From: Bacilli bacterium
Lineage (GTDB): Bacteria > Bacillota_I > Bacilli_A > ML615J-28 > CAG-313
Assembly: GCA_017501465.1 (NCBI GenBank)
Contig: JAFVWY010000015.1
Span: 171,422-221,771, forward strand
DNA: 50,350 bases
Direction: 5' to 3'
In this document: piece after piece, positions 24,743 to 47,108 of the stretch
How positions within the stretch are numbered: the first letter of the stretch is position 1
How the letters are laid out: the number at the start of each line of letters is the position of its first letter
Position numbers and translations under genes: made by a program
The notes under the pieces: model-generated
Database searches by the model: none
What the model saw: the letters and a program-made list of their open reading frames with translations, nothing else
Told to the model about the DNA's origin: nothing

Positions 24743-25436
24743 AATATCCTCTCAATTCAACTTTTTCAAAGTTGTCTTTGACCGCCTTTTTAAAGTTGAT
24801 AGCATTTATATATGAAATTTCATTTAAATTAGATTGTAGACAAGTATTGTTATTTACAAATTTTTGTAAAAAATACTTTTTGGCACCATTTAGCCATTTA
24901 CCGATTTCTATAATATCTTCTATAGTATGAAATTCGTTAATTAGAGTTGTTCTAAATTCATATTCAATACCACTAGTCATTAAGAAATTGATCGTTTTTT
25001 GTATGTTAAATAGATTAACATGAACGTTATCACAAGTTTTAGAATATTTAGGTAAAGTGTTTTTAATATCCATAGCTACATAATCAATTAATCCTTTATT
25101 GTATAAGTCAATTACCATATCCGGATTACTGCCATTAGTATCTAGTTTGATATAATAACCTAATTTTTTTATTTCTATTAATTTTTCTTCCAAATCTGGG
25201 TGTAATGTTGGTTCACCGCCTGTAACACATACAGCATCTAGCATATTTTTACGAAGTTTTAAGAAATTAATAATCTCATCAAAAGAAATTTCTTGAATAT
25301 TTTGATTTAAGACTAGATCTTTATTATGACAGAACGGGCAACGAAAATTACATCCATTAGTAAAAATAGTACAAGCAAGTTTTCCATCTAAATCTACTAA
25401 TGAAAGTGGCTCTATACCACAAAATTTAATACTCAT
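24741..25436 (-). CDS. nrdG: Anaerobic ribonucleotide reductase activating protein, radical SAM (NrdG2 type)
   Basis: Radical SAM enzyme that creates the glycyl radical in NrdD using S-adenosylmethionine and a 4Fe-4S cluster. The cluster motif is C29-NFR-C33-PF-C36 within TNGCNFRCPFCHN, followed by CVTGGEPTLHPDLE (the GGEP SAM-binding motif, about residues 70-83) and LDTNGSNP. At 231 residues it belongs to the longer group often annotated NrdG2. It is convergent with nrdD and the reductase gene, has its own extended -10 promoter, and starts after TAGGAGATGATACT. It can be expressed separately from its target, as the radical-installing partner is needed in small amounts. Confidence 0.9.
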   Translation of the reverse strand: MSIKFCGIEPLSLVDLDGKLACTIFTNGCNFRCPFCHNKDLVLNQNIQEISFDEIINFLKLRKNMLDAVCVTGGEPTLHPDLEEKLIEIKKLGYYIKLDTNGSNPDMVIDLYNKGLIDYVAMDIKNTLPKYSKTCDNVHVNLFNIQKTINFLMTSGIEYEFRTTLINEFHTIEDIIEIGKWLNGAKKYFLQKFVNNNTCLQSNLNEISYINAINFKKAVKDNFEKVELRGY

Positions 25437-25455
25437 AGTATCATCTCCTATAAGT

Positions 25456-25484
25456 ATTATAGCAAAATATTAAATTTATTTCAA
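25456..25484 (-). promoter_or_regulatory. Promoter of nrdG
   Basis: On the minus strand TTGAAA (25479-25484), 17-base spacer, TATAAT (25456-25461) with TGC directly before it (extended -10). Confidence 0.85.
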
Positions 25485-25499
25485 TTTAACAATTAATTA

Positions 25500-25528
25500 T
25501 TGCAAAAAAAGCTAATCTATGTTAAAAT
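25500..25528 (+). promoter_or_regulatory. Promoter of the ABC/FtsX/1136-residue gene cluster
   Basis: TTGCAA (25500-25505), 17-base spacer and TAAAAT (25523-25528). It is back-to-back with the nrdG promoter, their -35 boxes 16 bases apart. Confidence 0.72.
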
Positions 25529-25551
25529 AAAGTATAAAAAAGGTGATAAAA

Positions 25552-26235
25552 ATGAGTGTATTACAAGCTAAAAATTTATGTAAGAGTTTTAAGAATTCTT
25601 CATTTACACAAGAAGTATTAAAAGGAATTGATTTTGAAATTGAACAAGGTGATTTCATATTAATAACTGGTGCAAGTGGTAGTGGTAAAACAACCCTTTT
25701 GAATTGTTTGAGTGGGTTAGATACTATAACTAGTGGCGAAGTGTTGATAAATGGTCAAAATTTAGCTACCATTACTAGTAAGGAAATGTCTAATTTGAGA
25801 AAAAATCATATTGGTTTTGTCTTTCAGGCATATAATCTTTTACCAAACTTAACTCTATATGAAAATGTTGAAATTGCTAGTATTATTGCTTCTAAGTTTA
25901 ATAAAGATAAAATATTAGAATTATTAACAAAATTTAATTTAATCGATTTCAAAAATCATTTTCCTGAACAAGTATCTGGTGGCATGCAGCAAAGATGTGC
26001 AATTGTTAGAGCATTAATTAATGATCCTGACATTATATTTGCAGATGAGCCTACAGGTAATCTGGATTCTAAATCAAGTGTAGAAGTAATGGAAACTTTT
26101 CAAAAATTACATAGTGAATTTAATAAAACAATTGTTATGGTTACACACTCATTGGATAATTTAAAATATGGTAATCGACATATTCAAATAGTTGATGGTA
26201 AAGTTATCAAAGATGAAAGGTTAAATAATGCATAA
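25552..26235 (+). CDS. ABC transporter ATP-binding protein, MacB/LolD type
   Basis: ATPase of a type VII (MacB-like) ABC system, 227 residues. Walker A is GASGSGKT (40-47), the Q-loop lies in FQAYNLLPNLT (91-101), the signature is VSGGMQQR (141-148), Walker B is IIFADEP (161-167) and the switch histidine is in VTHS (197-200). The Q-loop and D-loop sequences are those of the LolD/MacB/FtsE subfamily. These work with FtsX-fold permeases as mechanotransmitters rather than classic importers. Start at ATG 25552 follows AAAGGTGAT. The permease gene overlaps its end by eight bases. Confidence 0.93.
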   Translation: MSVLQAKNLCKSFKNSSFTQEVLKGIDFEIEQGDFILITGASGSGKTTLLNCLSGLDTITSGEVLINGQNLATITSKEMSNLRKNHIGFVFQAYNLLPNLTLYENVEIASIIASKFNKDKILELLTKFNLIDFKNHFPEQVSGGMQQRCAIVRALINDPDIIFADEPTGNLDSKSSVEVMETFQKLHSEFNKTIVMVTHSLDNLKYGNRHIQIVDGKVIKDERLNNA

Positions 26236-28702
26236 CTTTTTATTCAAATTAAAATATGTTTACCGTAACACTAGCCGTAATTTCTTTCGCACTTTAAGCT
26301 TGTTTTTATCAATTTTTATGCTTAGTTTTATTGTTTTAACTGCATTTACTATTAAAGATGCTTTATCAACAGGTTATTATTTATATGAAGATGTAAAACA
26401 CGAAAACGTTGATGTGGTTGTAACATTTGATTCAAAGAGTACTAATTATATTATCGATGATACTAAAATTAATAAAATAAAACATTGTTTTGATTACTAT
26501 GGTAGTTTTTTTGAAATGTCTACTTTGTGTAAAGTTAATGATACACAGTTAAGTGTTATGTTACTAAGTGGCAATAGTAGTGATTTAGAAGGATTTATTG
26601 AAGAGGACTTGCCATTTTTACAATATAACGAAGTAATAATCAATAAAAGTGTGGCTGAAAAGTTAAATATTGGTTTAAATGAACAAGTGGAAATTTTTAT
26701 TGCAGATAAGGCATATTCATACAAAATAGTAAAAATAATTGAAGATAGAAGTATTTTTGAAGGAGATAAAGTACTTGTTCAAAAAAACTTTTATGTAAAA
26801 GAGTATGCAAAACATGTTTTAAATATCGATATGGATGATTATTCTAATATTAATTTAGCAACTTCTATCTATATTAATCTAAAAGACGGTTATGCAAGAG
26901 AAGATGTTATTAATCTTTTAAAAACTGACAAATATTATTCTAATTCTGTAGTTCATGATCCTAGAGGATACGAAGGAATGAAAGCAGATGTTGAGATGGG
27001 AACGGGTATTTTATATGCTGCCATTGCAATATTTATAGCTGCATTGTTATTCGTTTTAGTTTCAATTATTAACCTACGCATTAAAACCATTAAGAATGAA
27101 GTAGGTATAGTCGAAACACTTGGAGAAAATAAACGATATGTATTTAAACTTCTAATGATTGAAATAATGATTTTATCAATTTTTGGATTGTTATTTGCGT
27201 ATTTATTAAGTAATTTTGTATATACCAAAGAATTTTCTATTTTGTCTGTTCGTGGAGATTTTAAATACCATTACCGCATCTGGCAATTTTTAGGTACATA
27301 TTGTTGTGTTGTGATTATATGTGGATTAACACTTTGGAAGGGATATTTAAAGTATAATAAATTATCGACAATAGATCTTGCTAAGAACAAACAATATGAT
27401 ACTGTATGGTCATTTAAAAAACTAATCGTCATTAATTTGATATTAATAATTTTTGTAGTTTTAGATTATTTTTTATTTTCTGTATATTTGCCTTTAATGG
27501 TATCTTCTATTTTAGGTATATTAATTTATGTTACATTTGGTATAATGTTGGTTTCATTGATTGTGAAGATAATATGTCGCATCTTTCGATGGGATAAAGT
27601 CTTTAATGTTACATTTCTTAGAAATTTAAATATTAACAGAATTAAACATAATTCTTTGAAGATATTATTAGTATGTTTATTTGGAATTGTTATGTGTTGT
27701 ATTGTTATCGAAAATATAGATCTTACTTTATCCAATGTAGAAAGTAGTTTAAATATTGATAATATTTTAATTTCTCCTAAGGGTGTTGATGAAAGTGTGG
27801 TAGAAGATATTAAAAAGCATCCTGCAGTAGAAGGAGCGACACTTGGTTTTTTCGAAGATAAGGTCAGCACAAAGAATAATGAATATACTTTTTTAGTTGT
27901 CTTTTCGTGTGATGCTTCAGAAACGAAAAATTTAATGAACTTTGAACTTGATCAAAGTTATTTAGATAAGTTTTGTTCAAATGAGAAATATGTAGTCGTA
28001 ATGGAAGATTTTTTAGTAGCTTCTGGTTTACAGATTGGTGATTTACTTACTTTTAATTTAAGTGATGGAGCTCATACTTATGAAATTATAGGTACTGCAG
28101 ATTTACCTTTCCAACAATTTGCCTACACTAATGATTTCTATAGAGAAGATGTTTTCTTAAATACTGTACTTATTAATAATGATTTAGAAAATACTCTAGC
28201 TATGAATGATTTTAGAATAAGTATTACTGAAAAGTATGGTAGTAATATCAGCGTTTTATATAATGCTGGAACATATTTAACAACTTTCTTTTCAAGAGCA
28301 AGAATTGCTTTAGATGTAGTTTATGCGGTAATTTTCATTGTTATTATATGTTTTGTAGTATCTATTATTAATAATACGATACTGGACTTTAATGAAATAA
28401 AAAAAGATTTAGCAACTATTCAAATTTTAGGTATAAGTTCAATGCGACTTACAAAAATGATTTTGTTTGAAATTGTTATTTCATATTTATCAGTCTTTGC
28501 ATCTTTAATTTTGATGGTTTATGCAGTGGCTGTTCGCTTCGGCGGCTTATCACTACTTTGTGGATATTATTTAGATTTAATTTTAAATATTAAAACTATC
28601 ATCTTAGCAATTATATTTGGTATGATATGTTTTGTAGTGAGTTATATTTATTATTTTATTGGTTGTAAGAAAATCAATGTTTGTGAAGAATTAAAAAAAT
28701 AG
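26228..28702 (+). CDS. FtsX-family ABC permease with duplicated FtsX units
   Basis: An 824-residue membrane protein. It begins with a membrane helix (about 18-42), then a large outer domain of about 210 residues, then helices near 255-285 and 300-330 (first FtsX unit), and further helices to about 500. A second outer domain (about 505-690) and three final helices complete the second unit. The typical FtsX phrase NEVGIVETLGENKRYV (about 297) and its counterpart EIKKDLATIQILGISSMRL (about 725) are visible. Such permeases export lipoproteins or peptides, or transmit force to periplasmic partners. It overlaps the ATPase gene, and the large anchored protein follows nine bases after, so the three form one unit. 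Confidence 0.85.
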   Translation: MHNFLFKLKYVYRNTSRNFFRTLSLFLSIFMLSFIVLTAFTIKDALSTGYYLYEDVKHENVDVVVTFDSKSTNYIIDDTKINKIKHCFDYYGSFFEMSTLCKVNDTQLSVMLLSGNSSDLEGFIEEDLPFLQYNEVIINKSVAEKLNIGLNEQVEIFIADKAYSYKIVKIIEDRSIFEGDKVLVQKNFYVKEYAKHVLNIDMDDYSNINLATSIYINLKDGYAREDVINLLKTDKYYSNSVVHDPRGYEGMKADVEMGTGILYAAIAIFIAALLFVLVSIINLRIKTIKNEVGIVETLGENKRYVFKLLMIEIMILSIFGLLFAYLLSNFVYTKEFSILSVRGDFKYHYRIWQFLGTYCCVVIICGLTLWKGYLKYNKLSTIDLAKNKQYDTVWSFKKLIVINLILIIFVVLDYFLFSVYLPLMVSSILGILIYVTFGIMLVSLIVKIICRIFRWDKVFNVTFLRNLNINRIKHNSLKILLVCLFGIVMCCIVIENIDLTLSNVESSLNIDNILISPKGVDESVVEDIKKHPAVEGATLGFFEDKVSTKNNEYTFLVVFSCDASETKNLMNFELDQSYLDKFCSNEKYVVVMEDFLVASGLQIGDLLTFNLSDGAHTYEIIGTADLPFQQFAYTNDFYREDVFLNTVLINNDLENTLAMNDFRISITEKYGSNISVLYNAGTYLTTFFSRARIALDVVYAVIFIVIICFVVSIINNTILDFNEIKKDLATIQILGISSMRLTKMILFEIVISYLSVFASLILMVYAVAVRFGGLSLLCGYYLDLILNIKTIILAIIFGMICFVVSYIYYFIGCKKINVCEELKK

Positions 28703-28711
28703 GAGGTTTTT

Positions 28712-31700
28712 ATGAAGAAGAAAATAATTATAATAATTGTTTCTTGTTTTCTTTTACTATCTATTGGTAGTGTATCACTTGTTTTGCTATTAGATGATGA
28801 TGATTCTACTAATGAAAACAATGAAATAATTGAAAAAGAATTAGAAAAATTATCTAAACCTCTTAATTTAGTAATTGACCAATATAGTCTTACTTGGAAT
28901 AAAGTTGAGAATGCTGAAGAATATTTAATAAATGTCGATAATTTACAATATTCTTCCAAGAGTAATAATTTTGATTTGACTGATAAAGTAAATGAAAATA
29001 GTATTATATCAGTTGTTGCACTGGGTAACGATAAATTTGATGATTCAGTTAAAAGTGTAGAGATCGTTTTTCGAAATCAAAAAGATGAAACACAAATTAA
29101 TCAAATATATTTAGAATTAAATGATTTATTAAATAAATACTTCGTCATAAAAAACAATATTCAAGAAAGTGTTTATAATATTGCTGAGAGAATATACATG
29201 CGAGGGTTAACTTCTAGTGATGCTTGCTTATTGATTCATGAGATTGACTCTATGCTAGAAAATGTTGATAAGTTATCTAATTTCAATAAGATAAATAATC
29301 TTCAAATGGTTTTTTTAGATATGGTGGATATTCTTTCTTTAGATGTGAATGAATATGCATTAGTTAGTGGATTGGTATACTTCTTTGAGGCGTATTCGAA
29401 AGTAGCATCTGAAAATGAAAAGATTAATTTAAATACTAGTTTTAAGACAGAGTATTATGATCTGTCTTTATATCAAACTAATTTTCAAACAATTTATCAA
29501 AAACTATCTTCATTAAAAGAATTTGATATTCAAAATGTTACTTCACTACTACATTATTATAAAATTTATCGCAATCAAGTAAGTAATATTGTTAATACTA
29601 TTGAAAAAACTAATCTTGATAATGTGAATACCGTATATAATGATGTACTCACACTTAAAAACATGTTGTGTGATTTATTATTAAATGAAATGCCGTTAGT
29701 TTTAGAGTTTGAAGGATTTAAAGCTATTTTTACTGATTTGTATAATTTGATTTTTGAAGGTTATCTTCAAGAAAAAGTAACTAGTGACGAAATTAATAGT
29801 TATTTTAACAACTTATATTCTGTAAACGAATATTATCTTAGTTTTTTAAATTCATTGGAAGATTCAGATTATAAAGTAATTGTGACAAGATTGTTATCAT
29901 TTGTTAACTCAATTAATTCAGATGATATTGATGGTTTTAAGGAAGTAATTGAATTAATGGATGCCAATAGTCCCAATTATATTTTAAATATAGTTATAAA
30001 ACATTTTGATAATGTTTTTATCGATTATGATTTAACTATTAATCAAGAATTTGTGGAAACGATTATAGATATTTTTCAAGAAGAAGACCCAGTTACTATA
30101 GTTAATAGATTAGTAGAGTATTTAGAAGTATTTGATTATATTGATCAAAATGAGGATATCCTTTATGAAGTTTTTGATTATTTGATATCCTTACTTCCTG
30201 ACTCAATTCAATCTGGGAAGGATTTAGGTGAATACTTTGAAAGTATTATAAATAGTATTAATTTAGAAGATTATTATGAAATTAGATATGAGGAAGTATT
30301 TAACGATCTAAATTTAGAAATAATTTTGAACTCAATACAAGAGTTTATTGAAGGTAATATTACACAAGATGAGCTAGAAAAGCAAATTATTAGTTTAATC
30401 GATGTCGATAAAGTATTAGTTTTTGATGTTGATAAACTAATATCAGATATTATTTCCTTGATTCAAGAGGATATGCCAAAATTAGCTGAATTTATCAAAG
30501 AAGTTCTATTACTAGATGAAATAACTATTAAAAATATTCTAGAAATTATGGGAATTGATCATCGGGTAGATGTTGATATTAATGGTTTTGTTGAAAATTT
30601 AAAAAATAAAATAGGTATTAATGTTGATGCCTTGTTCATTGAAAATAAAATTTTTGAATTTGTTGATAATGTAGTAGAAGAAATTAGGGGAAAAACGAGT
30701 AAAGTCGAAAAATATTTTAAAATCCTAACAATTTTTACCAACCCTAATTATGAATTTTCTGAAAATGATTTAGAAGAATTATTTAAAGAGGATACAATTG
30801 ATTTTGGCAGTTTATTTATCCTAATGGATCACTTAAAGGTTAAATATGCAAAATTCCAAATTAAGCATGATCCAATTTATGAAAATGGTTTAGATTTTAA
30901 TCTAAAACATCTTGAAGAAAATTTATTTAATTGTTTTGTTTATTTATACTTTGGTCAACATGCATATGCTGGCGAAGAATTTAGCTTATCAGTTGTTGAT
31001 TTAACTTATAAAATTGTTGATTTATATCAAAACTTTGATAAGTTTATTGAAATTATCGATCATTACGAAAATTTATTCGAAAGTATGGATATTCAATGGG
31101 ATGATTTGATTGATTTATATAATAAGGAAACTGAATTTAATGAATTGATGAATGTGTATAGAGAAGAACTAGACTATACTTATCAGTCATTAAAGTACAT
31201 TTTGGATGTTTTACCATTAGATGAAGTGATAAAACTAAAGTATTGTATTAATAATTTATTAGCATCATATGGTTATGAACAAACTCAAGAAATTTATCAA
31301 TTTATTAAAATAATTGAAGATTCTTACTATAAACTAATTGAAGAAATTGATACATTATATGGTGATTTTCTAGAAAAAGAAGAAGCTATTAAACGCTTAT
31401 ATCATAATACTCACGTATTGGTAGATCCAGTATATGAATACTATCAAGAGCTTAAAGAAATTTATTATAGTGATGGCGAATTAAGTGATGATGATATCAT
31501 TGATATCGTATCTAATGTTATTTCTAATAAAACTAAATTAAATAGTTTTTATAATCCAGTGATTATCCAAGAGATTGGTAGTGATTTGGATATTATATTT
31601 GGAGATCAAGTGATTGATTTTAATAAAGAAGTATTAGAAATAATTTTCTATTTCGATTTTATTTATAATAGGATTAATGCTTCTAACGCTGTATCAACCA

Positions 31701-32122
31701 CTGTCGGTTTAGCTCAAGATTTAATGAAGATATTAGAAGATGTAGATACTTTTAAAACAATTTTTATTGAATTACAAGAGTTATTAAATAATACAGAAAT
31801 ATCTAATGAAGACAAGAAAAATGAGTTTGATAAATTATATACTAAATTAATGGATACTTATGAATTAATTAAGACTAATTCTCTTTTGGTTGTTCAAGAT
31901 TTGGATCTGTTTATGTTAAAAGGAATTCAAGATTTAAGTCAAACTAATCCTGAATATACTCTTAGACAAGAAGAATTCTTATTTGAAGATGAACTAATAA
32001 AAGTTTTTGATAAGATGGATCAGATTATGAATAGTCTAGATGTGGAAAGTATTGAAGATTTAAATTTAGATTTTACTAGTATTATCATAAATTTATTACA
32101 AAATGTTGATATTCTTGAATAA
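28712..32122 (+). CDS. Very large membrane-anchored helical protein of unknown function
   Basis: I recognise no family for the bulk of this 1136-residue protein. Residues 4-27 form a signal anchor (KKKIIIIIVSC...SLVLLL) followed by an acidic DDDD patch; there is no proper lipobox, so it probably stays anchored with the rest outside. Residues about 47-118 look like a fibronectin-III-like module (YSLTWNKVENAEEYLINVD), the same pattern found twice in the lipoprotein at 34588. From about 125 on it is predicted all-helical, rich in Leu, Ile, Asp and Glu, with few Cys and no evident enzymatic motif. It follows the FtsX-type permease by nine bases behind AGGAGG and is probably its partner or substrate. 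It ends at a bidirectional terminator. Confidence 0.7.
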   Translation: MKKKIIIIIVSCFLLLSIGSVSLVLLLDDDDSTNENNEIIEKELEKLSKPLNLVIDQYSLTWNKVENAEEYLINVDNLQYSSKSNNFDLTDKVNENSIISVVALGNDKFDDSVKSVEIVFRNQKDETQINQIYLELNDLLNKYFVIKNNIQESVYNIAERIYMRGLTSSDACLLIHEIDSMLENVDKLSNFNKINNLQMVFLDMVDILSLDVNEYALVSGLVYFFEAYSKVASENEKINLNTSFKTEYYDLSLYQTNFQTIYQKLSSLKEFDIQNVTSLLHYYKIYRNQVSNIVNTIEKTNLDNVNTVYNDVLTLKNMLCDLLLNEMPLVLEFEGFKAIFTDLYNLIFEGYLQEKVTSDEINSYFNNLYSVNEYYLSFLNSLEDSDYKVIVTRLLSFVNSINSDDIDGFKEVIELMDANSPNYILNIVIKHFDNVFIDYDLTINQEFVETIIDIFQEEDPVTIVNRLVEYLEVFDYIDQNEDILYEVFDYLISLLPDSIQSGKDLGEYFESIINSINLEDYYEIRYEEVFNDLNLEIILNSIQEFIEGNITQDELEKQIISLIDVDKVLVFDVDKLISDIISLIQEDMPKLAEFIKEVLLLDEITIKNILEIMGIDHRVDVDINGFVENLKNKIGINVDALFIENKIFEFVDNVVEEIRGKTSKVEKYFKILTIFTNPNYEFSENDLEELFKEDTIDFGSLFILMDHLKVKYAKFQIKHDPIYENGLDFNLKHLEENLFNCFVYLYFGQHAYAGEEFSLSVVDLTYKIVDLYQNFDKFIEIIDHYENLFESMDIQWDDLIDLYNKETEFNELMNVYREELDYTYQSLKYILDVLPLDEVIKLKYCINNLLASYGYEQTQEIYQFIKIIEDSYYKLIEEIDTLYGDFLEKEEAIKRLYHNTHVLVDPVYEYYQELKEIYYSDGELSDDDIIDIVSNVISNKTKLNSFYNPVIIQEIGSDLDIIFGDQVIDFNKEVLEIIFYFDFIYNRINASNAVSTTVGLAQDLMKILEDVDTFKTIFIELQELLNNTEISNEDKKNEFDKLYTKLMDTYELIKTNSLLVVQDLDLFMLKGIQDLSQTNPEYTLRQEEFLFEDELIKVFDKMDQIMNSLDVESIEDLNLDFTSIIINLLQNVDILE

Positions 32123-32150
32123 AAAAATAACCACTAAGTGGTTATTTTTT
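32121..32150. terminator. Bidirectional terminator between the large protein gene and the Crp/Fnr gene
   Basis: AATAACCAC (32126-32134) pairs with GTGGTTATT (32138-32146) around TAA, flanked by A7 on the left and T6 on the right. It serves both convergent genes. Confidence 0.9.
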
Positions 32151-32160
32151 ATTTTACTGG

Positions 32161-32757
32161 TTATATTAATAAAGTAATGGTGTTTTTCTTTTTAATAATG
32201 ATATTTTCATTTTCTAGATTTGTTAGTTCTCTAGAAACACTAGGTCTTGGCAATGATAAAATCATAGCTAGTTTTGTCACACTAGGAATTTTGATAGTTT
32301 TTGAATGTTGTTTTTTAGCCATTGAAGAAAAATAATATAAGATACGATCTTTAATGTTCTTATGAATAAGTAATTTATTTTGTTGTTTGATAAATAAAGA
32401 TGTGTTTGATAGTTCTTCAAGATAGGCCTCTAAAAACATTTGATTTGTTTGAAGTAAATTTATTAGTTCTTTTTTGGTAATTAATACAACTGTTGTCTTT
32501 TTTTCAGCAATAATATCTCCCAAATAGTAAGGATCTTCACTAAAAATTAATACATTACCAAAAACATCATGTTTTTCTAATAAAGAAATTGTTTCTTCTT
32601 TCTCCATGTAAGTAATAGTGGTGATTTTGACTAATCCTGATAAAATAATACCAATCGATTCACATTTTTCAAAACTAGAAAATATTATGTCTCCTGTATT
32701 GTATGTTATAGTTTTATATTTACTTAATAGATTTAATACATCGTTAGATAGTTTCAT
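32161..32757 (-). CDS. Crp/Fnr family transcription regulator
   Basis: A 198-residue regulator. The N-terminal cyclic-nucleotide-binding-like barrel spans about 10-110 (TYNTGDIIFSSFEKCESIGIILSGLVKIT). A long dimer helix follows (about 110-140). The C-terminal winged helix contains SVTKLAMILSLPRPSVSRELTNLENENII (about 160-190), where RPSVSREL is the recognition helix. No N-terminal cysteine cluster of the Fnr type is seen, so it is unlikely to be a 4Fe-4S oxygen sensor; the ligand is unknown. It is shorter than E. coli Crp (209). It is divergent from the solute-binding protein gene, with a palindrome between that overlaps its own -35 box, suggesting autorepression and control of the neighbour. 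Confidence 0.88.
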   Translation of the reverse strand: MKLSNDVLNLLSKYKTITYNTGDIIFSSFEKCESIGIILSGLVKITTITYMEKEETISLLEKHDVFGNVLIFSEDPYYLGDIIAEKKTTVVLITKKELINLLQTNQMFLEAYLEELSNTSLFIKQQNKLLIHKNIKDRILYYFSSMAKKQHSKTIKIPSVTKLAMILSLPRPSVSRELTNLENENIIIKKKNTITLLI

Positions 32758-32838: not shown

Positions 32839-32864
32839 AATAATGAAAAGAAAGAGGTTTGATT

Positions 32865-33794
32865 ATGAAAAAAGTATTAAGTTTTTTATCAATAATAGTA
32901 TTTACTATTATTTTAATGGGTTGTGAATTTGGAGGAGGCGGTAAATCTTATAAGGTTATCGTTCCAACTGGAGCTCCATCTTTAGCGATTGCTAATTTTA
33001 TTCAAGAAAAAGAAGAAAATGTAACTGTTGATATTGTAAGTGGTAGTGAACCATTAACTGCTGCATTCACAAATGCTGATTATGATATTATCGTTGCACC
33101 TGTAAATCTTGGTTTAAAGTTCTATAATAGTGTTGAATCATTTAAATATTCATTTTATAAACCGATTGTAGGATGTAATTTCTATATTTTATCAACTGAA
33201 GTTTCAAGCATTGAAGAATTAGATGGTAAAAGTATGCATGCCTTTAATAAAATGGCAACACCTGGTGTTATGTTACAAACAATTTTTGGACACTATGATT
33301 TAAATGTTGATGTAACATATGAGTCATCAGTAACAGTTGCTAATTCACTATTAACTGCAGGAGAAGCAAAGACAATTTTAACTGCTGAACCATCTAAGAC
33401 TACTTTAATGAGTAAAAATAACTATCATGTTATTGATATTGCAGCTATTTGGAGAGAAATATCTGGTCACAATTATAATGCATTACAAGCTGGCGTATTT
33501 GTAAAAAGCGAATTAAAGAATGATCGAAATGTTAAAAATATGTTAGAAGAGATGGAAAATTCTATTGAGTTAGCTTATACTAATCCACTTAAACTTGCGG
33601 AAGCTGCCAAGGCAGTTGATGATGGCTTTGCAAAACAAACAGTTGAAAATTTAACAAAAGCTATTCCTAATTGTAATTTCTTAAGACATGAATTAAATAA
33701 AGAAGAAGTTGCATATTATTTCCAAAAAATTATGGATTTAGGTATGCAAGGTAGTTTTGGAGGAAAACTTCCTGATGAAGGATTCTACTATTAA
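32865..33794 (+). CDS. ABC transporter solute-binding lipoprotein (NMT1/SsuA-like)
   Basis: A 309-residue lipoprotein with signal peptide and lipobox ILMGC (Cys20), followed by a glycine-rich linker. The mature part starts YKVIVPTGAPSLAIANFIQ and shows the two-lobe pattern of the NMT1/THI5-like and SsuA/TauA group (DYDIIVAPVNLGLKF, later ELDGKSMHAFNKMATPG, then ILTAEPSKTTL). These bind thiamine pyrimidine precursors, sulfonates or nitrate; the ligand here cannot be deduced. ATG 32865 follows AAAGAGG. The permease gene overlaps its 3' end. Transcription is probably controlled by the divergent Crp/Fnr protein. Confidence 0.85.
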   Translation: MKKVLSFLSIIVFTIILMGCEFGGGGKSYKVIVPTGAPSLAIANFIQEKEENVTVDIVSGSEPLTAAFTNADYDIIVAPVNLGLKFYNSVESFKYSFYKPIVGCNFYILSTEVSSIEELDGKSMHAFNKMATPGVMLQTIFGHYDLNVDVTYESSVTVANSLLTAGEAKTILTAEPSKTTLMSKNNYHVIDIAAIWREISGHNYNALQAGVFVKSELKNDRNVKNMLEEMENSIELAYTNPLKLAEAAKAVDDGFAKQTVENLTKAIPNCNFLRHELNKEEVAYYFQKIMDLGMQGSFGGKLPDEGFYY

Positions 33795-34527
33795 GAGGTT
33801 TATTTATTCCTCAACAACAGTATTAATTATCTTTTTGTTGTGGATTATATTATCTGCAACAAAAGACAATGCTTTAATATATCCAAGCATTAAACAAATT
33901 TGGCATGCTCTGATTGGTTGTTTTGATTTGAAGGGCTTAACTGTTTTAAGCTTAACTATCTTTAGGGTTATTATTACAATTATTGCATCCTTTTTAGTAT
34001 CTAGTTTTATAATGATTTTATATGTTAAAAGACCTACTAGTTATGCGTTTTTCTCACCAATTATTAAAATAATGAGAACTGTCCCATTTATTTGTATTTC
34101 TATTTTTATTATTTTAATATTTGATCGTCAGATAGCTCCTTACGTAATTGCGTTTTTATTAACAATCCCAATTATTTGTGAAGGAATTAAAAGTGGAATT
34201 GATCTTTTGGATAAGAATTTAGTTGATGATTTAGCGATGCATAATATTAGTTTAAGACAAAAAATATTTTTAGTTTATATGCCAATGTTGATTCCGACAA
34301 TTGTTTTAACTTTTCTACAAACATTTGGTTTAGGGTTTAAGGTTATTATTATGGGTGAATGTTATGCGCAAACTAAGAATAGTTTAGGCTTATATTTATT
34401 TCATGCAAAAGAATACTTAGCAATGGATGAGCTGATTGCGTGGACAATTGTAATAGTTGTAATTGTAGCAATTGTCGAAACTATGATTAATTACTATAAC
34501 AAAAAGAGAAATCAATTGATTTATTAA
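33775..34527 (+). CDS. ABC transporter permease (SsuC/TauC-like)
   Basis: Integral membrane subunit with six likely helices over 250 residues, in the BPD-transport family. NALIYPSIKQIWHALIG (about 30-46) is typical of the SsuC/TauC/ThiX group. The cytoplasmic loop LAMHNISLRQKIFLVYMPMLIPTI (about 155-178) is the EAA-type loop that docks the ATPase. I use ATG 33775, preceded by GGAGGA (33759-33764); an upstream TTG would lengthen the overlap. It overlaps the binding-protein gene by 20 bases. No matching ATPase gene is adjacent: the next genes are a nucleotidase lipoprotein and a radical SAM protein, so the ATPase must be encoded elsewhere. Confidence 0.87.
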   Translation: MKDSTIKRFIYSSTTVLIIFLLWIILSATKDNALIYPSIKQIWHALIGCFDLKGLTVLSLTIFRVIITIIASFLVSSFIMILYVKRPTSYAFFSPIIKIMRTVPFICISIFIILIFDRQIAPYVIAFLLTIPIICEGIKSGIDLLDKNLVDDLAMHNISLRQKIFLVYMPMLIPTIVLTFLQTFGLGFKVIIMGECYAQTKNSLGLYLFHAKEYLAMDELIAWTIVIVVIVAIVETMINYYNKKRNQLIY

Positions 34528-34587: not shown

Positions 34588-36483
34588 ATGAAAAAACTAG
34601 TTTTACGTATTATAGGTATTTTTTTATGTGCTTTCATGTTAGCTGCCTGTGATTTCAACGGCACTACTAATGGTGGTTCAACAGAAATTACTACTTTGGA
34701 AACTCCTACCGTAATGTTGGTGGATAACCTTTTAAAGTGGAATGAAGTTGAAAATGCATCTTATTATGAGGTATATGTTAATAACACTATAAAGGAAAAA
34801 GTTACTGCATTAGAATATGATTTTACATATTTAACAGCAGGGACTTATACTTTAAAGGTTCGTGCATGTAATGATGCTTCTACTTTTAAAAATAGTAATT
34901 TTGCGGCTATAAAATTCGTCAAAGAGTTAACAGATAGCGAAAAAACTAAACTTGCTGTTCCAATTCTTAGAATTGAAAACAATGTTTTAAAATGGAATAG
35001 TGTTTTTAATGCGGTAGAATATGAAATTTTAGTGGATGATCAATTTGTAACAAAAACTTCTAATTTAGAGTTTTCATTTTTGAATTTATTAGATGGTAAT
35101 CATATAGTAAAGGTTCGTTCTTTAGGCGATGATAGTAAATTTTTGCCTAGTGATTATGTTATAATTGAGTTTACTCCGGGCTCTAATACAAAAAATGATG
35201 ATTATACTGTCTTTATGATTAATGATACCCATGGCGCTTTTCAAACAGGAGACTTCCCAGGATTAGCTAAAGTCCAAACTATTATTAAAAATTTAGAAAA
35301 TACTAATGGTGAAATTATTAAAGTTGCTAACGGTGATTTATTTCAAGGATCTTATGTATCTAATATTTTATATGGCTTACCAATTATTGATGGCTTAAAT
35401 GAAATGGAATTTGATGCTTTTGTTATTGGTAATCATGATTTTGATTGGGGTTTAGATAAAATAAAAAATTATTATGATGGCAATTTATCTAATGGCGAAG
35501 CAACATTCCCAGTATTAGGTGCAAATGTTATTGATAAAAAAACCAATGAAATGGTAGATTGGTTTGAACCATATACTATTGTTGAAAAAAATGGAGTCAA
35601 AGTTGGTATTATTGGTATAATTGGTTATGAATTAGAAAGTAGCATTTTAGCTGAAAATGTAGCTGATTATGAATTTATTTACCCCGTGACACTTGTTAGT
35701 GAATATGCAAAAGAATTAAGAGAAGAATTAGGTTGCGATTCTGTTATAGTAAGTATTCATGATTATGATCAAGATTTAAATAATGCTTTAGCCAGATTAA
35801 GTGGCACTTCAGCTATAGATATGATCCTATGTGGACACACACATCAAAGTATAACTACTACAATTACTGGTTCTAATGGAAAGAATATTCCGGTTGTACA
35901 AAATAGGGATAAAAATCGAAATGCAGTTAGTGTTAATTTGAATTTGACAACTTTTAACTATAATTCTAAAGTGTATTATCCTGAAGATTATAAAGAAGAT
36001 AGTGATTTCTTAGAACTTGTTTCTAAATATCAAAAGTATATCGATGAAGGTAATCGAGTGATTGGAAATGCTTCCTCATATCTTAATAAGTCAACACTAG
36101 GTAAGTTAGCTGTTGATTCTATGATGGAAAAATATGATGTTAGCATGTCAATTATAAATACGGCTGGCATTAGAGCAACAATTAATAGCGGAACTATTAC
36201 AGTAGCTGAAGTGTTTGAGGTTTTCCCTTTTAATAATGAAATTATAATTGCTGAGTTAACTGGTGCTCAAATTAAGAGTATGTATAATAGAAATGCGGAT
36301 TTCTTATATGTGAATAGTGGATTTAACATTAATAACTTTAATAATACAACAGTTTATAAGGTTGCAGTTATTGACTATGTTTTCACGGGAACTTATTATA
36401 AAGAATTCCAAAATGCCCCTTATACCGATACAAATGTATTGTTAAGAGACATATTAATAGAATATATAGAAACAAATTTTTAA
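34588..36483 (+). CDS. Surface lipoprotein with two Fn3-like modules and a 5'-nucleotidase/metallophosphatase
   Basis: A 631-residue lipoprotein (lipobox LAAC, Cys21). Two fibronectin-III-like modules follow (about 37-110 and 122-203), with the patterns LLKWNEVENASYYEVYVN and VLKWNSVFNAVEYEILVD. Next is a calcineurin-type phosphatase domain: NDTHG (about 212), NGDLFQGS (about 250), GNHDFDWG (about 283), SIHDYDQ and GHTHQS (about 415). The C-terminal 5'-nucleotidase domain contains INTAGIRATINSG and FEVFPFNNE. Family members hydrolyse nucleotides or nucleotide sugars outside the cell so that nucleosides and phosphate can be taken up. Good Shine-Dalgarno (AAGGAG). The radical SAM gene follows after nine bases. 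Confidence 0.88.
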   Translation: MKKLVLRIIGIFLCAFMLAACDFNGTTNGGSTEITTLETPTVMLVDNLLKWNEVENASYYEVYVNNTIKEKVTALEYDFTYLTAGTYTLKVRACNDASTFKNSNFAAIKFVKELTDSEKTKLAVPILRIENNVLKWNSVFNAVEYEILVDDQFVTKTSNLEFSFLNLLDGNHIVKVRSLGDDSKFLPSDYVIIEFTPGSNTKNDDYTVFMINDTHGAFQTGDFPGLAKVQTIIKNLENTNGEIIKVANGDLFQGSYVSNILYGLPIIDGLNEMEFDAFVIGNHDFDWGLDKIKNYYDGNLSNGEATFPVLGANVIDKKTNEMVDWFEPYTIVEKNGVKVGIIGIIGYELESSILAENVADYEFIYPVTLVSEYAKELREELGCDSVIVSIHDYDQDLNNALARLSGTSAIDMILCGHTHQSITTTITGSNGKNIPVVQNRDKNRNAVSVNLNLTTFNYNSKVYYPEDYKEDSDFLELVSKYQKYIDEGNRVIGNASSYLNKSTLGKLAVDSMMEKYDVSMSIINTAGIRATINSGTITVAEVFEVFPFNNEIIIAELTGAQIKSMYNRNADFLYVNSGFNINNFNNTTVYKVAVIDYVFTGTYYKEFQNAPYTDTNVLLRDILIEYIETNF

Positions 36484-40569: not shown

Positions 40570-41283
40570 ATGTTAAAAATTAATAATTTCTCATTTTTAT
40601 ATCCTAATGGTAAAAAGGCGGTTTCTAATTTGACTTTAAATGTAGAAAAAGGAGACTTATATGCTTTTATTGGTCACAACGGAGCCGGTAAGACTACTAC
40701 AATTAAAAGTATTGTGGGAATTTTAGATTTTACTGATGGAGAAATATTAATTGATGGAATGTCTATTAAAGAAAAAGCATTAGAATGTAAAAAAGTTATT
40801 TCATATTTGCCTGATAATCCTGATTTATATAATTCTTTGACAGGTATTCAGTATTTAAACTTCATTAGTGATGTTTTTAAAATTAGTAAAAATGACCGTA
40901 AAGAACTTATTGAATATTATGCTAATGAGTTTGGTCTTTTAGATAGTTTAAATATGATGATTTCTTCCTATTCACATGGAATGAAACAAAAATTAGCTTT
41001 AATTGCGGCTTTTATTCATAAACCTAAGCTTTTAATAATGGATGAACCTTTTGTAGGTTTGGATCCAAAAGCAACTTTTATTGTTAAAAAGATGATGAAA
41101 GAATTTTGTGAACGTGGTGGTGCTATTTTCTTTTCGACACACATTCTTGAAGTTGCACAAAAGTTATGTAATAAAATTGCGATAATTAAAGAAGGTAAAT
41201 TGATTATTGAAGGGAAAATGGAAGAAGTTACGAAGGAATTATCACTTGAAGATGTTTTCATGGAGTTAACAGAACATGAATAA
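40570..41283 (+). CDS. ABC transporter ATP-binding protein (ABC-2/EcsA-like exporter)
   Basis: A 237-residue ATPase. Walker A GHNGAGKT (35-42), signature YSHGMKQK (about 137-144, His in place of the usual first Gly), Walker B LLIMDEP (about 155-161) and switch histidine in STHILEV (about 190). This set is typical of EcsA/CcmA-type ATPases that serve ABC-2 exporters. Shine-Dalgarno GAGGTGA is at 40560. The permease gene overlaps its 3' end by eight bases. Substrate unknown. Confidence 0.93.
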   Translation: MLKINNFSFLYPNGKKAVSNLTLNVEKGDLYAFIGHNGAGKTTTIKSIVGILDFTDGEILIDGMSIKEKALECKKVISYLPDNPDLYNSLTGIQYLNFISDVFKISKNDRKELIEYYANEFGLLDSLNMMISSYSHGMKQKLALIAAFIHKPKLLIMDEPFVGLDPKATFIVKKMMKEFCERGGAIFFSTHILEVAQKLCNKIAIIKEGKLIIEGKMEEVTKELSLEDVFMELTEHE

Positions 41284-42865
41284 TATTTTATTATTGACGA
41301 AAAACTATTTTAAATCCTTTGTTGGTTCGTTAGGTAAAAATAGTAAGAATCCTAAATTTTATGTAGGTTTATTAATTTGTGGTGCCTTATCTATCTTTAT
41401 TACCTTAACTTTCACTATTAATTCAATTACTACTACCCAACTATTCTTGGAAATGGCTAAAGAAGGCGTTGAAAATGCTGAAATGATGGCTATGTATACC
41501 AATTGTACAATGGCAATTATTATGTTATTGTTTGTTACAATTATGCGTAGCGTTATTCCTAGTAAAAGTACTGATACTGATGCTTTATTGTCACTTCCTT
41601 TTACAAAACTTGAAATCACTGTATCTAAAAGTTTATATAATTATCTAGTTGATTTAGTATTGTTTGCTTCCATATTGTTGCCTAGTTTTATTGTATATTG
41701 TGTATTGGTTACAGATGCGAGTTTCATGATCGCTGTTAGAGGTACAATTTTATTATTGCTTTTACCACTAGTATCAAATGCTATTGCAACGTTTATTGGC
41801 TTATTAACAAACAAAATAGCTTCAAAAATCAAGCATTATTCCATTTTTCAAACAATAATAACTATAATTTTGATTGGATTTTATTTAATTGCAAATTATT
41901 CAATTCAAGGATATTTAAATAAAATTACAGGTACTGTCGATGAAATAATTAACAAAATATTTATCATAAAAGTATTATTAGAATTTATTCTATTAGGAAA
42001 ATTAGGATGGTTTTTAATTATTGCTTTGGCCATTGTGTTGATTTATACTTTATCATTGTTGGTTTTAAGAAATAGACTTGGTAAATTGGAAAAAAGAAGA
42101 AGTTTAAATAAACAAAATCTTTACTTTAAACAACAAAATATTTTAAAGACATTAATTCAAAAAGAGTTACGCCAATATTTTAATATTCCAATGTATATTT
42201 TGAATACTATTCTACCAGGTGTAATCTATTTTGGATTATGTGTAGCGATATGTGTGTTAGGTGAAGATAGAGCTTTAATGTTTTTGAATGCTCTACCAAA
42301 TGTTTTTAAGACCAATTCTGATGTATTACCAATTATGTTATTATCTATTCTATTGGGATCTTTTGTTATTACTGGTAGTGCCATTTCTTTAGAAGGTAAG
42401 ACTTTTTGGATAACTATTTCTAACCCAATTAAACCGATTGTAATTTTTGCTTCGAAAATCATAACAAATCTAATTTTGACTGGAACAATTGTTGTAATTA
42501 GTTTTCCTTTTGTTTTAACTTTCGTTGATATTGAATATGCGTGGATTTATTTAATTGTACCATTCGTTGGCAGTGTAATGTCTTCGACATTAGGTTTATT
42601 TTTAAATTTAAATTTCCCGAAAATGGAATGGGACAAAGAAGAAATAGTAATTAAACAATCTTTATCTTCAATGCTAGCTTTATTCCTTCCAATTATTTTT
42701 ATAATTTTTCCATACATGTTGTATTTTTCACAACTACACAAATATTATAATATTCATACATTTATGATTTTTAATATCTTGTATTTACTAGTTATTACGT
42801 TAATTATTATTTTATGGTTTGTTAAAAAAGGAAGAATTGCGTTGATTAAAGCTTTAAATAGTTAA
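41276..42865 (+). CDS. ABC-2-type exporter permease
   Basis: A 529-residue membrane protein with about twelve hydrophobic segments in two halves: six before the cytoplasmic loop RNRLGKLEKRRSLNKQNLYFKQQNILKTLIQKELRQYF (about 263-302) and six after. The loop with its basic character and the pattern IPSKSTDTDALLSLPFTKLEI (about 100-120) resembles putative ABC exporters (DUF/ABC-2 group) of Bacillota. It is coupled to the ATPase by an ATG-overlap. I cannot assign a substrate; lipids, peptides or drugs are all possible. Confidence 0.82.
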   Translation: MNNILLLTKNYFKSFVGSLGKNSKNPKFYVGLLICGALSIFITLTFTINSITTTQLFLEMAKEGVENAEMMAMYTNCTMAIIMLLFVTIMRSVIPSKSTDTDALLSLPFTKLEITVSKSLYNYLVDLVLFASILLPSFIVYCVLVTDASFMIAVRGTILLLLLPLVSNAIATFIGLLTNKIASKIKHYSIFQTIITIILIGFYLIANYSIQGYLNKITGTVDEIINKIFIIKVLLEFILLGKLGWFLIIALAIVLIYTLSLLVLRNRLGKLEKRRSLNKQNLYFKQQNILKTLIQKELRQYFNIPMYILNTILPGVIYFGLCVAICVLGEDRALMFLNALPNVFKTNSDVLPIMLLSILLGSFVITGSAISLEGKTFWITISNPIKPIVIFASKIITNLILTGTIVVISFPFVLTFVDIEYAWIYLIVPFVGSVMSSTLGLFLNLNFPKMEWDKEEIVIKQSLSSMLALFLPIIFIIFPYMLYFSQLHKYYNIHTFMIFNILYLLVITLIIILWFVKKGRIALIKALNS

Positions 42866-45917: not shown

Positions 45918-47108
45918 TTAGTTAGTGTAATTATCAAAATAGCCTTGAATTAATATGATAGGAGTACCTTTATCGCCACTTCCAGACGTTAAATCACATA
46001 ATGAACCAATTAAATCAGTTAATTGTCTAGGAGTAGTTCCTTGAGAGACCATTTGACCCACTAAATTTGAATCCTTATTTTTAATATAGTTCTTAATGGC
46101 TTCTTTTAATTCATCGCCTTTAAGATTGCTAAAATCATTATCTGCTAAATATTTAAGTTTGATTTCGTTTGGTTGACCTACAAGACCAGATGTGTGGAAT
46201 GGAGAAACGACAGGGTCTGCTAATTCCCAAATTTTACCAACTGGGTCTTTGAAAGCACCGTCTCCATAAACCATTACTTCGATTACTTTGCCGGTTTTTT
46301 GGTATAACATATGTTGAATTTGTTCTACAATTACTTGTCCATCTCTTGGGAATAATTTGATTTTATCTTCTGTAGCTTTGTTACTACCTAATAGACCGTA
46401 ATCAGCATTGTATCCAGAACCATTAATAGAAGCATTTAAAATATCGTCAATTCCATACACTAATTTTGCATTTGCTTCCTTTAATAATCTTTTGCTTCTT
46501 GCTCTAGAATGTATATCGCAGCATAATACACAATCAGTATATTTTAAGATAGATCGAACATCATTAGCAAAAATTATTTCGAGTTCACAGCCCATTTCTT
46601 CTACAATGCTTCTATAATATGCTACATAATCAACACCTGTAAAATGATGTTTTTGATATCCAAAAAGTTCTCGGTATTTTTCTTCGGTAAGAACATCAGA
46701 CCAAGGATTTACTTTCTTTTCATCTAATTGGTCTAAAGAGATTAAATGGTTACCAACTTCATCAGAAGGATAACTTAACATTAATATAATTTTTTTGGCA
46801 CCCTTTGCGATACCTTTTAAACAGATTGAAAATCTATTTCTACTTAGTATTGGAAATACAACCCCAATTGTGTTTTCACCGAATTTTTGTCTTACATCAG
46901 CTGCAATATCATCAATGGTCGCATAATTTCCTTGTGCTCTTGCTACTACGGCCTCTGTAATACCTACAACGTCTTTATTATTAAGACCAAAGCCTTCAGA
47001 TGCAGCGGCATTAATTATGCTATCAACAACGATTTGACAAATGTCATCACCTTCTCTAATTATCGGTGCGCGAACACCTCTAGATACTGTACCTATTAAT
47101 CTTTCCAT
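45918..47108 (-). CDS. CofE-like protein (F420-0:gamma-glutamyl ligase family), unknown role
   Basis: A 396-residue protein with the F420 ligase-family fold. It begins GTVSRGVRAPIIREGDDICQIVVDSI, then GLNNKDVVGITEAVVARAQGNY (about 41-62), with the conserved D-V-V-x-I-x-x-K/A-V-V-A pattern, and VYGDGAFKDPVGKIWELADP (about 283-302). Archaeal and actinobacterial CofE adds glutamates to coenzyme F420. Nothing else for F420 synthesis is in the window and Bacillota of this type are not known to make F420. It therefore probably ligates an amino acid to some other molecule. It stands alone behind its own promoter, with AATGGAGGTCC before the start. Confidence 0.8.
   Translation of the reverse strand: MERLIGTVSRGVRAPIIREGDDICQIVVDSIINAAASEGFGLNNKDVVGITEAVVARAQGNYATIDDIAADVRQKFGENTIGVVFPILSRNRFSICLKGIAKGAKKIILMLSYPSDEVGNHLISLDQLDEKKVNPWSDVLTEEKYRELFGYQKHHFTGVDYVAYYRSIVEEMGCELEIIFANDVRSILKYTDCVLCCDIHSRARSKRLLKEANAKLVYGIDDILNASINGSGYNADYGLLGSNKATEDKIKLFPRDGQVIVEQIQHMLYQKTGKVIEVMVYGDGAFKDPVGKIWELADPVVSPFHTSGLVGQPNEIKLKYLADNDFSNLKGDELKEAIKNYIKNKDSNLVGQMVSQGTTPRQLTDLIGSLCDLTSGSGDKGTPIILIQGYFDNYTN

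Follow-up and report, generated by a model that had tools for sequence, protein, structure and literature searches.

A YbbAP-like ABC transporter and a new family of large helical proteins are co-inherited in Bacilli

Here, we identify P3, a large, anchored and mostly helical protein, as a member of a new family, and no orphan. P3 is encoded in one operon with an ABC ATPase and its permease, and permease and P3 are co-inherited through many, mostly wall-less, Bacilli. Because the pair is inherited together, P3 is probably a new kind of non-enzymatic partner for this YbbAP-like transporter. Literature searches of open-licence papers found no earlier account of the ATPase-permease-P3 trio.

Results

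Three genes in a tight operon

The window, the whole 50,350-nucleotide stretch of DNA analysed here, lies on contig C11 of a 1.56-Mb genome in 22 contigs. Based on the ORF list and a terminator scan, the genes for the ATPase (25552..26235), the permease (26228..28702) and P3 (28712..32122), all on the plus strand, form a tight operon with a terminator at its end. ATPase and permease genes share 8 nt, and a gap of 9 nt separates the permease stop from the P3 start. The Shine-Dalgarno sequence of P3, AGGAGG (28701..28706, plus strand), was read from the sequence and overlaps the 3' end of the permease gene. The sole plus-strand terminator-like site within 25300-32300, an intrinsic-terminator-like hairpin (32122..32150), lies directly 3' of the P3 stop codon. 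A spurious ORF is ruled out by the strong ribosome-binding site, the terminator and the conserved trio in other genomes, and the recurrence of the trio in itself excludes a chance origin. The sequence-only reading of this locus had described three tightly packed genes and the absence of an HlyD-type adaptor. Coordinates, shared strand, overlap and gap, and the trio recurring elsewhere bear out the former; as for the latter, no HlyD/MacA adaptor gene was found among the flanking genes scanned beside the transporter. A reading as a defence system was dropped because PADLOC gave no match.

Near the 3' end of the operon, the minus strand encodes a Crp-family regulator (32161-32757), which adjoins genes for a VitK2_biosynth-type substrate-binding lipoprotein and then a BPD_transp_1 permease (32859-34527). 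Elsewhere in the window, an ABC ATPase gene precedes that of a 529-aa multi-TM protein without a Pfam family (40570-42865), and a F420-0:gamma-glutamyl ligase-family protein is encoded, here in a Bacilli genome, at 45918-47108.

The transporter has the architecture of YbbAP

The ATPase subunit matches Pfam ABC_tran (2e-34), and its catalytic set is intact (Walker A GASGSGKT, signature SGG, Walker B DEPTG and the H-loop). Its best start is the ATG at 25552, preceded by AAGGTGAT. Compared with E. coli proteins by phmmer, it ranks LolD (2.5e-53) before MacB (2e-52) and YbbA (2.4e-47), LolD thus being the nearest among the E. coli Type VII ATPases.

The 824-aa permease matches MacB_PCD (1.1e-8) and FtsX (1.5e-8) above the Pfam cut-offs and, together with its MacB-class ATPase, belongs to the Type VII ABC superfamily of MacB, LolCDE, FtsEX and YbbAP. 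Hydropathy gives ten TM peaks (residues 24-42, 263-281, 308-326, 351-369, 399-417, 428-446, 476-494, 693-711, 749-767 and 785-803), at nearly the positions of those in E. coli YbbP, with outer domains between TM1/2 (about 45-250) and TM7/8 (about 505-690), as in the YbbAP subtype. The two halves of the permease are duplicates of one another (hhalign E 1.5e-12). In YbbP, outer domains likewise lie between TM1/2 and TM7/8, the first and last four TM segments are duplicated and TM5/6 form the link (PMC12646458). The hhalign alignment with YbbP runs over 655 collinear columns, and MacB, LolC, LolE and FtsX align in shorter pieces only. Because the local HMM scores of LolE and LolC exceed that of YbbP, the sequence relation to YbbP is distant, and it is the architecture, not the sequence score, that points to YbbP. 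Relatives with solved structures are PsdB, YtrF, LolF, MacB and LolE. The earlier label "MacB/FtsX-type" was thus imprecise, the permease being YbbP-like, with ten TM segments and a duplication, and not a 4-TM MacB or FtsX.

Among known systems, a MacAB-TolC tripartite pump was rejected: the ATPase is a separate gene, the permease has ten and not four TM peaks, and no adaptor lies beside the operon. BceAB-BceS shares the 10-TM fold and occurs in Firmicutes; however, BceB lacks the first outer domain, having one large domain between TM7/8 where this permease has two, and its partner is a histidine kinase, none of which lies beside this operon. The YbbAP-TesA system proper was also rejected, given that the partner here is P3, which has no hydrolase family and is not a TesA-type esterase.

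P3 is an acidic, helical protein that matches no known family

The P3 ORF encodes 1136 aa with a pI of 4.2, and family alignments (A4, A6) and profile matches make the protein a member of a new family. A lone hydrophobic segment at about residues 5-27 forms the N-terminal membrane anchor (28712..28801); an Fn3-like module follows (28853..29074; high-confidence beta strands at 54-121; Foldseek Fn3/Ig matches with probability up to 1.0), and the rest is predicted to be helical. The most conserved element of the helical domain is ExxxxKxExxxxxxxxxxP (29642..29695, residues 311-328). In an alignment of 28 sequences, P328 is invariant and columns 311 and 316 are almost so, and the same columns stand out in the helical-only alignment. 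We define the P3 family by a helical domain with this element, encoded 3' of a YbbP-type permease, and the window protein has both. A profile self-comparison suggests an internal duplication (123 columns, E about 1e-3). The sequence-only reading had given the protein one membrane anchor and one Fn3-like module, which is true of P3 in the window; the anchor is, however, peculiar to its genus, whose P3 has no usable lipobox although the trio is intact, while relatives outside the genus are mostly lipoproteins with a lipobox and one to four Fn3-like modules. One genome (G022) has P3 in two tandem copies, the second with four Fn3-like modules (L032, 10757-16293), and a 1421-aa P3 in G073 has a long C-terminal extension past the helical domain (L106, 8946-13208).

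Structure prediction gave an Fn3 module and helices, with no reliable fold match for the helical part. The AlphaFold2 model of a 749-aa member, L092 (pLDDT 83, pTM 0.71), has the Fn3 module at about 34-112, followed by about 25 helices up to the C-terminus; the model of the window P3 has a mean pLDDT of 59.7 and is confident only up to about residue 400. Foldseek matches in the PDB were Fn3/Ig domains, and long helical matches had a probability of 0.2 or less. Sequence searches of Pfam, NCBIfam and the PDB returned no relative of the helical domain and, as anticipated for a giant protein without an enzyme motif, Pfam and NCBIfam gave no enzyme family.

A single-protein search of genome contigs found P3 only in the sister genome, a goat-colon Bacilli MAG, and in the first P3 search many unrelated Fn3 lipoproteins came up. 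Lipoproteins of other types with Fn3 modules are frequent in this order, and modules like that of P3 occur on many of its surface proteins; in the window, a 5'-nucleotidase/metallophosphoesterase lipoprotein (34588-36483) has two Fn3-like modules resembling that of P3. Because the Fn3 module drew unrelated lipoproteins, later counts were restricted to the helical region (A6). This sensitive profile search identified P3 as a family, with homologues in 40 of the 395 genomes that represent the class; when 295 genomes were drawn from the whole phylum, P3 matches were confined to class members.

The permease and P3 are linked and co-inherited

A permease profile was searched over the 395 genomes of the class and the neighbourhoods were then read, separating two groups. 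In the high-scoring group (above about 265 bits if complete, with fragments at contig ends scoring lower), a helical protein of 600-1421 aa, nearly always Fn3-bearing, is encoded directly 3' of the permease in 30 of 35 genomes; the trio also occurs in neighbouring genomes, where P3 is a lipoprotein. In a 31st case, G371, one IS-type transposase gene separates permease and P3 (L098, 8581-12787). The contig breaks off in G284, and P3 is located elsewhere in the genome in G254 and G390. The remaining genome, G039, has no P3 neighbour; a 460-aa helical lipoprotein without Fn3, unrelated-looking and with no detectable homology to P3, is encoded 5' of its ATPase (L034, 7208-8590). The lower-scoring permeases mostly have the order permease-ATPase, without a P3-like partner.

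For the reverse test, the helical-only profile was run against the same 395 genomes; because the initial scoring covered only a few candidates in each genome, P3 absences are less certain than presences. Of the 35 genomes with the permease family, 34 have a P3 homologue, against 6 of the 360 others. Five of these six belong to a single genus, g89, where P3 has kept the chromosomal position it holds in related genomes, without ATPase or permease; in the sixth, G062, the locus is cut by a contig end. Since g89 retains P3 after loss of the transporter, P3 is not strictly dependent on it, and this retention shows it to be of some use by itself. Stand-alone P3 paralogues of up to 1880 aa occur in G158, G137, G149, G131 and G184, the longest in a genome without the transporter (G137; L138, 6367-12009). 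A candidate in G141 was rejected, being one part of a gene that a contig break divides in two. The check proposed at the outset, whether the three genes stay together across genomes, thus came out in favour of the trio: the third gene matches no known unrelated family, and 34 of the 40 genomes with P3 keep the transporter, a pairing that extends over at least six families of Bacilli.

In 24 genomes, the pairwise distances between permeases track those between P3 proteins (r=0.89, a value reached in 0 of 2000 permutations); a correlation is also expected from vertical descent alone. In the permease tree, P3-linked permeases group together, apart from partnerless permease-ATPase relatives; G009, a long-branch row, has an uncertain place. 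Both trees share placements against taxonomy: G005 (family f1) pairs with G038 (f2), both flagged as long branches by the tree tool; G021 (f2) groups with families f8, f10 and f15; and G022 and G027 (f2) fall inside f22.

Most carriers lack cell-wall genes

MraY and the PF00905 transpeptidase were chosen as wall markers because MurG also matched in archaeal controls; MraY matched in two archaeal controls as well, and every counted match lies above the curated cut-off. MraY is present in 7 and PF00905 in 8 of 41 carriers, and 33 have neither; several of these 33 are draft genomes, yet completeness reaches 94-100% in many. Both MraY and transpeptidases are present in the window genome, and the system is therefore not confined to wall-less cells.

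These data bear on an earlier analogy to FtsEX and PcsB. FtsEX-PcsB/CwlO/EnvC systems resemble the trio in that Type VII mechanotransmission acts on an elongated partner outside, and both the FtsX superfamily membership of the permease and the wall genes of the window genome would fit a similar control of peptidoglycan hydrolysis. By contrast, FtsX has four TM segments and its partner carries or activates a peptidoglycan hydrolase, while this permease has ten and P3 has no such hydrolase domain, which led us to reject identity with FtsEX. Moreover, with both MraY and the penicillin-binding transpeptidase absent from 33 of 41 carriers, a peptidoglycan role of this style cannot be the shared function. 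We consider it highly improbable that P3 and its transporter work in this way; such a role restricted to a single lineage is possible.

Discussion

We lean, by a modest measure, towards reading the trio as one envelope machine, in which a YbbAP-type (Type VII) ABC complex works with P3 as its dedicated extracytoplasmic partner. The linkage in 34 of 35 genomes, the correlated distances, the shared odd tree placements and the YbbP topology back this idea. The P3 proteins of g89 without a transporter and the stand-alone paralogues speak against it, as do the Fn3 spacers, one to four in number, which are easier to reconcile with a flexible tether than with rigid docking.

In Type VII ABC systems, the partner typically defines the function (PMC12646458). 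The closest parallel is YbbAP-TesA of E. coli (PMC12646458), which also has a separate ATPase, a permease of about 800 aa with ten TM segments, the same two outer domains and an internal duplication, and an extracytoplasmic partner gene next door. However, sequence similarity between the permease and YbbP is very low, and TesA is a small esterase, whereas P3 proteins are anchored and helical, with 600-1400 aa, Fn3 modules and no recognisable enzyme domain. LolCDE-LolA belongs to the same superfamily, has the closest ATPase and gives the strongest HMM similarity in the FtsX segment; in contrast to the trio, its permease is made up of two separate subunits with four TM segments each, LolC and LolE, and its carrier, LolA, is small and soluble; no outer-membrane target is evident here.

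If the trio works like other Type VII systems, the outer domains of the permease would open and close as ATP is bound and hydrolysed, and these moving domains would act on P3 outside the cell. The permease may pull a hydrophobic or lipid-like molecule from the outer leaflet, and the helical domain of P3, tethered in the same membrane, may receive, hold or pass on this molecule, in a hand-off similar to that to LolA from LolCDE or, as proposed, between YbbAP and TesA. Such extraction by the permease and acceptance by P3 is our leading, if tentative, suggestion for the job of the trio. We favour it because lipid-like molecules are the proposed or demonstrated substrates of YbbAP and LolCDE (PMC12646458), and because P3 is without enzyme features. 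P116 of Mycoplasma pneumoniae, a possible functional analogue, provides a precedent for lipid extraction by a large surface protein in a wall-less bacterium (PMC10023570), a setting that the wall-gene-poor carriers may share; the abstract of that report mentions no adjacent ABC transporter. Against this precedent, P116 is not among the reported PDB sequence and Foldseek matches of P3, the window model being of low confidence beyond residue 400. A bolder and more doubtful proposition is that P3 represents a new fold and serves, mainly in wall-less Bacilli, as a tethered carrier of lipids or other hydrophobic molecules driven by a YbbAP-type machine, analogous but unrelated to LolA, TesA and P116.

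The main rival reads P3 as a surface stalk or adhesin under mechanical drive, whose helical arm would be pulled or re-oriented by the ABC machine without any substrate being moved. The sequence-only reading had likewise suggested a mechanically driven or tunnel-forming partner; the former would follow from the Type VII class, and nothing found here points to the latter. Type VII mechanotransmission, by which FtsEX moves coiled-coil activators, the long anchored arm with its variable Fn3 spacers and the lack of an enzyme domain agree with this idea; nevertheless, Pfam and NCBIfam revealed no adhesin family in P3, the fold-search matches include no FtsEX-type partner, and stand-alone P3 genes exist; we hold a stalk to be unlikely. 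The stand-alone paralogues and g89, with its P3 kept after transporter loss, would agree with P3 being a surface lipoprotein with a binding or attachment job of its own, merely co-transcribed with the transporter, as would befit an order in which other Fn3 lipoproteins abound. The near-complete retention of P3 alongside the permease, the correlated distances and the matching tree anomalies speak against this, and we hold it to be less probable than a stalk.

Finally, P3 could be the cargo, a lipoprotein that the transporter extracts or releases from the membrane in a LolCDE-like manner, as the lipobox on most P3 proteins and the proximity of the ATPase to LolD might suggest. Yet P3 of the window genus has a hydrophobic anchor in place of a usable lipobox while the trio is still intact, and these Bacilli, presumed from taxonomy to have a single membrane, offer no evident outer-membrane destination; we regard cargo as the least probable of these three alternatives.

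P3 is a large partner family without a Pfam, NCBIfam or PDB match that persists where the cell wall has been lost. Its function, once known, would add a new kind of partner to the Type VII superfamily and could reveal how wall-less Firmicutes manage an exposed membrane.
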